33,930 bases of DNA from contig SLJX01000008.1 in assembly GCA_007134885.1 (NCBI GenBank), positions 1 to 33,930 on the forward strand, given 5' to 3'. The notes beneath the pieces are model-generated. The model did not search any database, was not told where the DNA came from, and saw only the letters and a program-made list of their open reading frames with translations. The position numbers were made by a program, and so were the translations under genes. Origin of the DNA: Halanaerobiaceae bacterium. Its GTDB lineage: Bacteria; Bacillota; Halanaerobiia; Halanaerobiales; Halarsenatibacteraceae. Numbering within the stretch: position 1 is the stretch's first letter; the number at the start of each line of letters is the position of its first letter. Positions 7,668 through 24,460 of this stretch are shown here, in pieces.

Positions 7668-7751
7668 TATATTTATAGATAGTAAAATATGGAATTTTTA
7701 TTAGCAATTATACTGACTGCTGCTTATCTGGCAATTTTAAGGAGGAGAATG

Positions 7752-9413
7752 ATGAAAAATGGCAAAAAAAAGCATAGCAAAAACACCAATAAAAACATAA
7801 ACACCAATAAAGGCAAAAACAATATTGAAAGTCAGAAAACCAGAGCAACCAGGACAACCGGGACAACCAGGAATACCGGGAACACCAGGAGTATCGAGAA
7901 CACCAGGAGTATCGGGAACACCGGAAATACCGGGAACACCGGAAATACCGAAAATACCGGAGAGTATAGCAACAATTTAAATGATGATCAATTAAAATAC
8001 TGGCTGGGTCTCTCGCTGGTAACGGGTCTGGGGCCTGTTTATCTTAAGAAAGCTCTCGAGATTGAGTCCAATCCGGAAAAACTCTGGCTGAGTTCAGCCA
8101 GCAGACTGAAGTATATTTTTGGACAGCGCCTGGCCGGTAATATCATTGAAATCAGGAATGAGGTTGATCTCGATCAGAAAATGGCTGACCTGGCCAGGAA
8201 AAATATTAAGGTCATCAGTTTTACAGATCCAGGATATCCTGGAATCCTGCTGGAAATCGCCGATCCTCCTCCAATCCTTTTTTACCGGGGCAGGATTCAT
8301 CCGGGGAAACCTGCGGTTGCCATAGTTGGTTCCCGGAAAGCCAGCGGATACGGGATAAGGACCACCAGAATGCTGGCAGAAGAGCTGGCTTACCGCGGGA
8401 TTGTAATTGTCAGCGGCCTGGCTCTGGGAATAGATCGGGCCGCCCATGAAGGGGCGCTGGATGCCGGCGGGGAAAGCTGGGCAGTCCTGGGTTCGGGCCT
8501 GGATTATCAGTATCCTTCAAAGAATGTGGATCTCTATCACAGGCTGCCGGAACAGGGAGCCCTAATTTCAGAGTTTCCTCCCGAAATTGAACCGCAACCA
8601 GGAAATTTTCCCCGCCGCAACCGGATCATTAGCGGTCTCTGTCAGGGGGTGGTTGTCGTTGAAGCTGCCAGAAAAAGCGGCTCGCTGATTACAGCTAACC
8701 TGGCCCTTGACCAGAACCGTCATGTTCTTGCTGTCCCCGGCAACATCGACCGCATTTATAGCCAGGGTACAAATAACCTGATAAAAGAGGGCGCTATGCT
8801 GGTAACTTCTGCTGAGGACATCATTAACTATCTATATCAGCTTTATACAGTTGATGAGAAAAACCAGCAGAAAGATCCCGGCAATCCTGGCAATCCTGGC
8901 AATCCTGGCAATTCCAGCAATCAGTGTAACCAGAATAACCAAATCAACCAAAGTAATCAAATTAACCAGAGCAACCAAATCAATCAAAGTAACCAGGTTA
9001 ACCAGAATAATCAAAGTAACCAAAGCAATCAAAGGAATCAAAGTCATCAAAGTAACCAGATTAAGCAAAAAGAATCTGATAAAAGAAATGCAGCTGACAT
9101 TCCAAATACAAAACTCAACCCCGATAACAGCCAGTGCTCAACCACCCCCAAGAAAACAGGATCCACTTCCCCCTCTATTTCAACCAGCGGTGTTATTATT
9201 CCTCCGGATCTGACCCCGGCTGAAAAGAAAATTTTAAATATTTTCACCCGGGAAGTTGAGCTGACCACGAGCGAGCTTCAGGAGCTCACCGATATAGGTG
9301 CTGTCGGGATTAATGTCGCTTTGATAAATCTGGAAGTAGCCGGGGTAATTGGCAAGGGTGAAGGAGAAAAATTTTATTTTAAGGGTTTACAAAATCTCCT
9401 GGAACCAATATAA
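7752..9413 (+). CDS. dprA: DNA processing protein DprA (Smf) with two low-complexity regions
   Basis: DprA binds single-stranded DNA and loads RecA during DNA uptake and recombination. From the start used here (553 residues), residues about 185-362 are the Rossmann-like SMF domain, with VAIVGSRKASGYG, SGLALGIDRAAHEGAL, PRRNRIISGL and SGSLITANLAL. The C-terminal 65 residues form the usual winged-helix DNA-binding domain. Two regions are foreign to the family: an Asn/Thr/Gly-rich N terminus (about 5-70) and an Asn/Gln-rich stretch (about 370-480) between SMF and winged helix. They make the protein about 190 residues longer than normal. AAGGAGGAG (7739-7747) supports ATG 7752 (or 7749). The frame is open to ATG 7689, which would add a hydrophobic helix but has no ribosome binding site. 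Confidence 0.93.
   Translation: MKNGKKKHSKNTNKNINTNKGKNNIESQKTRATRTTGTTRNTGNTRSIENTRSIGNTGNTGNTGNTENTGEYSNNLNDDQLKYWLGLSLVTGLGPVYLKKALEIESNPEKLWLSSASRLKYIFGQRLAGNIIEIRNEVDLDQKMADLARKNIKVISFTDPGYPGILLEIADPPPILFYRGRIHPGKPAVAIVGSRKASGYGIRTTRMLAEELAYRGIVIVSGLALGIDRAAHEGALDAGGESWAVLGSGLDYQYPSKNVDLYHRLPEQGALISEFPPEIEPQPGNFPRRNRIISGLCQGVVVVEAARKSGSLITANLALDQNRHVLAVPGNIDRIYSQGTNNLIKEGAMLVTSAEDIINYLYQLYTVDEKNQQKDPGNPGNPGNPGNSSNQCNQNNQINQSNQINQSNQINQSNQVNQNNQSNQSNQRNQSHQSNQIKQKESDKRNAADIPNTKLNPDNSQCSTTPKKTGSTSPSISTSGVIIPPDLTPAEKKILNIFTREVELTTSELQELTDIGAVGINVALINLEVAGVIGKGEGEKFYFKGLQNLLEPI
7845..7975 (+). repeat. in-frame tandem repeat in the N-terminal part of dprA
   Basis: A DNA word of the type GGAACACCGGAAATACC recurs with periods that are multiples of nine bases. 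It encodes repeated Asn-Thr-Gly triplets. Because the unit length is a multiple of three, changes in copy number keep the frame open. Confidence 0.8.
8875..9065 (+). repeat. in-frame GGCAATCCT and AACCAAATCAATCAAAGT repeats inside dprA
   Basis: Four GGCAATCCT-type units (8879-8914) are followed by a longer array of AAYCARAKYAAYCAR-type units. They encode Gly-Asn-Pro repeats, then Asn-Gln-rich triplets such as NQINQSNQ. The segment joins the SMF and winged-helix domains. Confidence 0.8.
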
Positions 9414-14329: not shown

Positions 14330-14331
14330 TC

Positions 14332-14473
14332 GAGAAGGATATTATAACTAATCGGGAAGGATAATAACCGGTTAGATCAGGAAATTAGATCAGGAAAAAT
14401 ATTAGCAAATAAGTATTATAAGACAGATAAAAGGAAAGGCTTAGTATTATAAGAAATACAAAAGGAAAGGGTA
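14332..14473 (+). repeat. three adjoining tandem duplications of 22, 13 and 31 bp
   Basis: A 22-bp unit starting GAGAAGGATA occurs at 14332-14353 and, degenerate, at 14354-14375. The 13-bp unit TTAGATCAGGAAA occurs twice without change (14372-14384 and 14385-14397). A 31-bp unit starting AGTATTATAAG occurs at 14412-14442 and 14443-14473. Confidence 0.8.
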
Positions 14474-14575
14474 TGTCTCGAGCATTTCAAAAATTTATAA
14501 TAGTCATAAACTCCTGATTTAACAGCCCATCACTTGTATAAGTATAGATTTATAAGTAAGTTTATAAGCATAAAT

Positions 14576-14654
14576 GATTGCCCTGCATCAAGTCAATATC
14601 ATCAAATTTCGAAACTATAATCCCTAGTATGCCAGAAATCCTGTCAAACAAATT
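14576..14654. repeat. 79-bp dispersed repeat, copy 1
   Basis: This segment matches 24249-24327 without gaps at 65 of 79 positions (82%). The longest unchanged core is TCAAATTTCGAAACT (14602-14616), which contains the palindrome TTTCGAAA. Weaker similarity continues to about 14690. Eleven of the 14 differences are transitions. Read on the minus strand, both copies encode a similar 26-residue string centred on VSKFDDID. It could be a mobile-element relic, an intergenic repeat family or an RNA element. Confidence 0.8.
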
Positions 14655-14903
14655 TGCAGTAAAAAACAAAATTTCGTAGTTAAACCATAAATAAATATTA
14701 AGTATAAGCTTGATTAAATAATAAATCTTAGTTAGCTTTAAATTTTTGCGCCAGATCAGGAAATTTGCAATAAACAGGAAATTTGAAATAAATTTGAAAT
14801 AAAGAAGAAGATAGAAAGAGATCATATCTGGTTAATGAATTTAAGTTATTTTTAAAGAACTTATACCAGTTAATTAGTTAGATAGAAAGAGGATGATATT
14901 TAT

Positions 14904-21873: not shown

Positions 21874-22318
21874 TATCTTCCCCTCTCCTGGAGGGGTTGA
21901 TTATTTTCTTGAAACTGAGGAATAAAAGCAAAATCACCATAGAATTATGGCTATTGAATCTATTCAGCATTCTATAAAATTTAACATCTACAGAGCACCT
22001 GAATTATTGTTATAATTATTGTTATAACCGAATCATGGATTCTTGTTTTAATAAGTCTTCTGATTTGATTTCATAAAATCAGCTTTACAATTTTATCATA
22101 CCAAGTTTATCATACAAAATATCTGTTTTCTGATCTGACTTAATAGCCATGATAATAAATAACGATTAGCAGATATTGTTAAATGAGCAATAGATATTGA
22201 ATAATGAGTGACAAATATTGAATAGTGATTGATAGATATTGATATATGAGTAACAGATATTTAATGATGAGTAATCGATAATGAATAGTGAATATGAGGA
22301 TTAGCAGGAGGAATATCC
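21874..22318. other. 445-base spacer before uppS
   Basis: No gene was recognised. TTATTGTTATAA words occur near 22005-22028, and a 20-22 bp tandem array fills 22171-22298 directly ahead of the uppS ribosome binding site. I saw no clear promoter or terminator. Confidence 0.55.
22171..22298 (+). repeat. degenerate tandem array, six units of 20-22 bp, upstream of uppS
   Basis: Units follow the pattern AGATATTGAATAATGAGTRA. They begin near 22171, 22192, 22214, 22234, 22255 and 22277. They fill the space up to the uppS ribosome binding site (AGGAGG, 22306-22311). Confidence 0.75.
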
Positions 22319-23212
22319 ATGGAGCAGGCCAGGCATGTAGCAATAATCATGGATGGCAACGGCCGCTGGGCCCGCAAGCAGGGAAAAAGTCGCCGTCAGG
22401 GTCACCGGGAAGGGGTTAAAGCTCTGGAGAGGATAGCCCGCGCTGCCGCTAACTCTGAACAAATTCAGTATCTTACTGTTTTCGCTTTTTCAACTGAAAA
22501 CTGGAAACGCCCCGGATGGGAGGTAAAATTCCTTTTTGATCTCCTTCGTTCAACCATTCGTAATGAACTCGATAAACTGCAGGAAGAAGAGCAGATCATG
22601 ATTAAGGTAATTGGGCGACTGCAGGAACTGGATCCTGACATCCAGGAGGATATCAAGCGCATCGAAAAAATTTCCCGGAATAACCGGGAGCTGGTTCTGA
22701 CAGTTGCTGTAAACTATGGCGCTCGGGCCGAAATCCTCGATGCAGTAAATAGTATTATCAGAACAAATCTTCAACAGAACCAGAATAGTCAACAGTACAA
22801 GAATCTTCCCCAGAGCCAGAATAGCCAACAGAACCAGAATAATCAAATGTACAAGAATAACCAGCAGAATAAGAATAAACCACAAAACAAGAATCTTCAC
22901 CAGAACAAAAATAACTACCAGAACAAGGATAATCAGCAGATAATTTCTCAGGAAAGAGAAAACAAATTAATCTCAGAAACCGAACTAAAAAATCATTTAT
23001 ATAACCCGGGTTTACCTGAAGTGGATCTTCTAATTCGCACCGGGGGAGAGAAACGGATATCCAATTTTCTGCTCTGGCAGATTTCCTATGCTGAACTTTT
23101 TTTTACTCCAATTCTCTGGCCTGACTTTACCGCTGAGAATCTCGAAGAGGCTTTAGATGATTTTGCCAGAAGACAGCGGAAATATGGAGGACTTCCAGGA
23201 GAGGAGAGATAG
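22319..23212 (+). CDS. uppS: undecaprenyl diphosphate synthase with a Gln/Asn-rich insertion
   Basis: UppS makes the C55 lipid carrier for cell wall synthesis. Family landmarks are intact: HVAIIMDGNGRWA (6-18) with catalytic D12, the FAFSTENWKRP segment (55-65), and LLIRTGGEKRISNFLLWQ (237-254). Between the AVNYGARAEILDAVNSI helix (130-146) and NPGLPEVDLLIRT lies an insertion of low-complexity Gln, Asn and Lys (about residues 151-207). A short linker of 15-20 residues is normal here, so the protein is 297 residues long rather than about 250. The site is a surface loop near the dimer side, so activity is probably kept. A strong AGGAGG site precedes the ATG, and cdsA follows after three bases. 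Confidence 0.95.
   Translation: MEQARHVAIIMDGNGRWARKQGKSRRQGHREGVKALERIARAAANSEQIQYLTVFAFSTENWKRPGWEVKFLFDLLRSTIRNELDKLQEEEQIMIKVIGRLQELDPDIQEDIKRIEKISRNNRELVLTVAVNYGARAEILDAVNSIIRTNLQQNQNSQQYKNLPQSQNSQQNQNNQMYKNNQQNKNKPQNKNLHQNKNNYQNKDNQQIISQERENKLISETELKNHLYNPGLPEVDLLIRTGGEKRISNFLLWQISYAELFFTPILWPDFTAENLEEALDDFARRQRKYGGLPGEER
22765..22945 (+). repeat. in-frame Gln/Asn codon repeat inside uppS
   Basis: CAGAAYCAGAATARYCAACAG-like DNA words recur, some about 36 bases apart, and encode the inserted region of UppS. The reading frame stays open throughout. Confidence 0.7.
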
Positions 23213-24151: not shown

Positions 24152-24460
24152 TCTAGGCTGTGATCACACTGGTAATAAGAATATTTATCAATTTTACTGC
24201 CTTACCTGCTGGAAATGTATGGCCAATCTGTTTAAAAATTTAATGTCTGATTGTGCTGCATAAAGTCGATATCGTCAAATTTCGAAACTGTAATCCTTAG
24301 CATGTCAAGGAGCCTGTTAAACAAATTCTAAGAAAACTGCTTTTCGCAGTGAAATCATGCCTAACACTTAATTCTGAAATTACTTGAAAAGATGAATCAA
24401 AAATTAATTAAAAATCAACCAGAAAAGTTTCTGGAGCTTTTTGTTCTGGAGTTGTTTATT
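24152..24460. other. spacer between cdsA and the AI-2E-type gene
   Basis: The 309-base spacer contains copy 2 of the 79-bp dispersed repeat (24249-24327). Just after it is a small perfect hairpin, ACTGC-TTTTC-GCAGT (about 24337-24351). The reading frame of the next gene is open from ATG 24392. I saw no clear terminator for the uppS-cdsA transcript. Confidence 0.55.
24249..24327. repeat. 79-bp dispersed repeat, copy 2
   Basis: This is the partner of the copy at 14576-14654, ungapped and identical at 65 of 79 positions, with TCAAATTTCGAAACT (24275-24289) unchanged. On the minus strand the shared 26-codon frame is cut by a stop (24328-24330) right beside the repeat, so a real gene here is unlikely. 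Confidence 0.8.

Follow-up and report, generated by a model that had tools for sequence, protein, structure and literature searches.

What is the sequence that stands twice, in the same orientation and about 9.7 kb apart, between the genes of a Halanaerobiaceae bacterium contig? In the window (the whole stretch of 33,930 nucleotides that was analysed), positions 14576-14654 and 24249-24327 align without gaps and agree at 65 of 79 bases, whereas shuffles of both intergenic gaps reached at most 47 of 79 (mean 38.6, 1000 trials). The pair described in an earlier note is thus real, as are its intergenic position and its unchanged core, TCAAATTTCGAAACT, which occurs in both copies at an identical offset. 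Three guesses had been offered for it: a small mobile element, a conserved RNA or a relic of a mobile gene. The first proves to be right, judging from copy number, target-site duplications and an empty site at the orthologous locus. The repeat is very probably a MITE with imperfect 19-bp terminal inverted repeats (TIRs) and a non-coding interior, which would be mobilised in trans by an IS1182-like transposase.

The match reported in the earlier note stood, but its coordinates were too short. Defined by terminal repeats and target-site duplications, the full elements span 14576-14686 (copy 1, 111 bp, + strand) and 24249-24356 (copy 2, 108 bp, + strand), and the weaker similarity noticed for about 35 further bases is the remainder of the element, including its 3' TIR. 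Copy 1 lies between hslV and hslU, where it was delimited by alignment and by a match to profile R1 (see below) at 14576-14686 (E = 3.7e-24). Its 5' TIR, GATTGCCCTGCATCAAGTC (14576-14594, + strand), fits the TIR pattern with 2 mismatches, and its 3' TIR (14668-14686, - strand; AAAATTTCGTAGTTAAACC when read on the + strand) is degenerate, agreeing with the family consensus at 14 of 19 positions. Comparison of the flanks finds ATAAAT on both the left (14570-14575) and the right (14687-14692). Copy 2 lies between a cdsA-type cytidylyltransferase gene and a gene for an AI-2E-family permease, the latter upstream of dxr, and is matched by the profile at 24249-24355 (E = 7.4e-26). Both of its TIRs, GATTGTGCTGCATAAAGTC (24249-24267, + strand) and GATTTCACTGCGAAAAGCA (24338-24356, read on the - strand), fit the TIR pattern, and it is flanked by ATGTCT on the left (24243-24248) and ATGCCT on the right (24357-24362), which agree at 5 of 6 bases.

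The hslV-hslU gap (14330-14903) measures 574 bp in the window versus approx. 130 bp in the related genome G001 (locus L244); copy 1 accounts for 111 bp of it, and the remainder is AT-rich. The window also contains tandem repeats. In-frame repeats of 9 and 18 bp in uppS (22319-23212; repeat at 22772-22953) and in a dprA-like gene (7689-9413; repeats at 7830-7964 and 8882-9070) lengthen these housekeeping proteins with low-complexity stretches, and a 21-bp tandem repeat (22152-22298) is found upstream of uppS. UppS of the congener G003 has a QQNKDN repeat of its own.

The two copies belong to a large family. In their own genome (G000; 2,312,528 bases in 207 contigs, a draft 96% complete), from whose searches the copy counts are taken, either window copy used as a query finds at least 41 matches. 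A sequence-only profile, R1, built from 44 copies, finds 80 matches at E ≤ 1e-3, about 65 of which are strong and near full length. The copies fall into two subfamilies, A (108 bp) and B (110 bp). When aligned, they start with GATTG and end with AACC, and the family ends form imperfect 19-bp TIRs, GATTGCACTGCATAAAGTC at the 5' end and GGTTTCACTGCGAAAAGTC at the 3' end on the other strand. Beyond these ends similarity ceases and short direct repeats start. Elements of 108-111 bp with a non-coding interior are too short to hold a transposase gene; no gene relic is visible inside them, and only their termini match IS1182-like elements, which lends no support to the guess of a mobile-gene relic. 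In addition, 45 of 47 copies lie outside open reading frames of at least 100 amino acids, while random positions in these loci would fall inside in 70% of cases. Because pairwise identity among the 44 copies averages 79% and nearest neighbours are on average 90% and up to 98% identical, the majority of copies appear to be old, with a few younger pairs.

These counts bear directly on the idea that both window copies stem from a single old local or segmental duplication. Their equal orientation and spacing of 9.7 kb would suit such an event, and the earlier note had reserved this explanation for the case that no further copies were found. With 80 matches across the genome, and with copies that end at terminal repeats, have unrelated flanks and in half of the cases carry their own target duplication, a single duplication is almost certainly not the origin of the pair.

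The density of the family varies along the genome. One 19.5-kb contig (G000:C177, locus L169) carries at least 7 MITE copies, approx. 10 times the genome average; as read from its open reading frames, it holds a housekeeping cluster with clpC, radA, disA, carD, a PilT-type gene, ispD, ispF, gltX and cysS. Isolated terminal-repeat matches in the same genome were also considered as ends of an autonomous element and proved to be mostly further MITE copies.

The short direct repeats at the ends have the properties of target-site duplications. Exact duplications of 6-7 bp flank 24 of 47 copies, whereas mispaired flanks yield a mean of 0.6 and a maximum of 5 (2000 shuffles); in a first set, an exact 6- or 7-bp duplication was found at 20 of 37 copies, where mispaired flanks averaged 0.5 and reached at most 4. 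The duplications are AT-rich and mostly of the form AT..AT, for example ATTTCAT, ATGATAT, ATAAAAT and ATCTAT. No exact duplication was found at 23 of the 47 copies, as would be expected if these copies are old (mean pairwise identity 79%).

Insertion at one of these sites can be followed in a relative. In the congener G003, the frr-uppS-cdsA-permease-dxr region is 87-94% identical to the window, and on contig C341 the gap between cdsA and the permease gene can be aligned up to either side of copy 2, with flanks that are 88-94% identical, but copy 2 itself is absent. A short tandem duplication in G003 close to the junction makes the exact base of this empty site uncertain. A different element (locus L243, 2945 to approx. 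3115, approx. 170 bp) lies in this gap of G003; it starts with GATTGCACTGCGAAAAGTC, ends with GCAGTATAACC and is absent from the window. Two different elements with like termini thus occupy the same gap in two sister species. This longer, second type also has a related match in the own genome (G000:C134:3601-3708). For copy 1, the hslV-hslU gap of G001 is without the MITE, but it is too diverged for a base-by-base alignment. The sequence thus shows the family to be dispersed and intergenic, inserted at AT-rich sites with a 6-7-bp duplication and, in the case of copy 2, absent from the orthologous locus of a congener.

In a nucleotide search of 61 genomes, the family was confined to its own genus and one further genome, G004, from the same taxonomic family. 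The profile gave 23 matches in G003, 7 in G002, 2 in G001 (MAG Halanaerobiaceae bacterium T1Sed10_84, contig PWEJ01000124.1), 4 in G004 and, in G006, 33 weak matches, some of them counted on both strands; G034 and G018 gave none. G006, which belongs to another genus of the same family, carries a sister MITE family of approx. 107 bp, whose termini are related and whose interior has diverged (for example C165:8234-8340 and C94:10832-10938). Two single-end matches were considered as full IS elements and rejected: the one in G002:C114 is a truncated MITE, and the one in G003:C48 is a 54-bp shortened element that keeps both termini (locus L154, 4343-4396).

A short, dispersed intergenic repeat might also be a conserved structured RNA, or an element regulating at the RNA level, that has been retained between genes. 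The copies are indeed intergenic and often flanked by genes on the same strand, and their consensus can form a long imperfect hairpin, as can any inverted-repeat element. However, RNAalifold predicted no pairs for the 44 copies. The 15-pair terminal helix has a covariation of 0.088, compared with 0.090 in shuffles, and two-sided changes affect 3 of its pairs, compared with 3.7 in shuffles. Moreover, no Rfam family matches anything in the window, and the orthologous site of the congener does without copy 2. An RNA function as the reason for the repeat is accordingly very improbable, and the guess of a conserved RNA can be set aside in favour of the MITE.

The terminal repeats of the MITE also lead to a candidate autonomous partner. 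A search of the taxonomic family with them revealed two inward-facing repeats in G004:C46 at a distance of 1.9 kb, which bound an element of 1907 bp with a frameshifted transposase and ATTATT on each side. In Pfam, this transposase matches DUF772 and DDE_Tnp_1_6. When the order was searched with it, intact homologues were found in G034 and a frameshifted one in G018. G034 contains two 1870-bp elements with an intact transposase of 530 amino acids, duplications ATTTTAAT and ATAGAT, and the terminus GATTGCACTGCGAAAAGTC, which agrees with both MITE ends at 17 of 19 positions; the G018 element is 1867 bp long and flanked by the duplication AACTAT. All four elements of approx. 1.9 kb, from three genomes, thus carry like termini at either end and show AT-rich duplications of 6-8 bp. 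In particular, only 7 of the 31,124 positions in the four IS loci match the MITE terminus at 15 or more of 19 bases, and all 7 are element ends. Because the G034 and G018 elements were picked by protein similarity and not by terminus, their ends provide an independent check. The best NCBIfam match of the transposase is NF033551 (IS1182; E = 1.8e-50), and since its 172 bits lie under the curated cut-off of 270, it was assigned to a divergent relative of IS1182.

An IS1182-like element is therefore the likely partner, as judged from these sequence comparisons. It could be argued instead that the MITE is moved by a transposase of another family, whose termini share the motif by chance. The terminal similarity spans only approx. 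19 bp, the interiors of MITE and IS do not match, and the ends of IS6-type elements look distantly similar. No IS1182-like transposase was found in G000 (E ≤ 0.01; 96%-complete draft in 207 contigs) or in G001 and G002, and the only one in G003 is more distant (33% identity). A MITE does not, however, strictly need its partner transposase in the same genome. Four IS1182-like elements from three genomes of the order carry these termini and duplications on either side, two of these genomes having been reached through the transposase, and more distant IS1182 relatives (approx. 30% identity) mostly lack the termini, so that mobilisation by a transposase of another family is very unlikely.

The proposed route of transposition follows from this assignment. 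The DDE transposase of the IS1182-like element would bind the shared terminal repeats in trans and then cut at the ends of the MITE; the cut element would be joined to a staggered cut in the target, and gap filling would produce the 6-7-bp duplication. Each defining feature of a MITE that was tested is present, namely a size below approx. 500 bp, TIRs, duplications, multiple copies, an empty site and termini shared with an IS. With the IS1182 family (NF033551; DDE_Tnp_1_6/DUF772) the MITE shares TIRs (17 of 19), short AT-rich duplications and the taxonomic order of its host; it differs in having no transposase gene, and the partner's own transposase scores below the curated cut-off (172 versus 270 bits). 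The IS1182 family is heterogeneous: IS1272, one of its described members, takes the place of inverted-repeat targets without creating a duplication (PMC5678879), and the present IS1182-like group therefore differs from IS1272 in its targets.

Similarity limited to the termini has precedents. Kamoun et al. described MITEs whose similarity to the partner is restricted to the ends (PMC3852290), and the present family likewise resembles its autonomous IS only there. MITEAba12 of Moraxellaceae and SM1-SM4 of Sulfolobus are also short and non-coding, with TIRs, tens of copies and IS similarity largely at the ends (PMC6382973, PMC10969869), although they come from other host lineages and were compared by description, not by sequence. 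Quoted copy numbers are 1-22 for MITEAba12 and 25-44 for the SM elements (PMC6382973, PMC10969869), which the present family exceeds with about 65-80. ERIC repeats of Enterobacteriaceae, again compared by description, not by sequence, are similarly short, dispersed, intergenic and numerous (PMC10969869); the present family is identified by target duplications and an IS partner. It is an ordinary kind of mobile element, but the family itself appears to be previously undescribed: searches of open-licence papers turned up neither a previous description of it nor an article focusing on an IS1182-derived MITE.

Copies occupy many gaps in core gene clusters, for example seven on the 19.5-kb clpC-radA-disA-carD-ispD contig, and may act on expression between co-oriented genes. 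It is unlikely that such a purpose explains the retention or spread of the family, or that it is moved by a transposase which the genus obtains only transiently. Read as a MITE, a dispersed repeat that would otherwise resemble an unknown RNA is now explained, and the Halanaerobiaceae gain a MITE family for which an IS1182-like partner is probable and an empty site is available.
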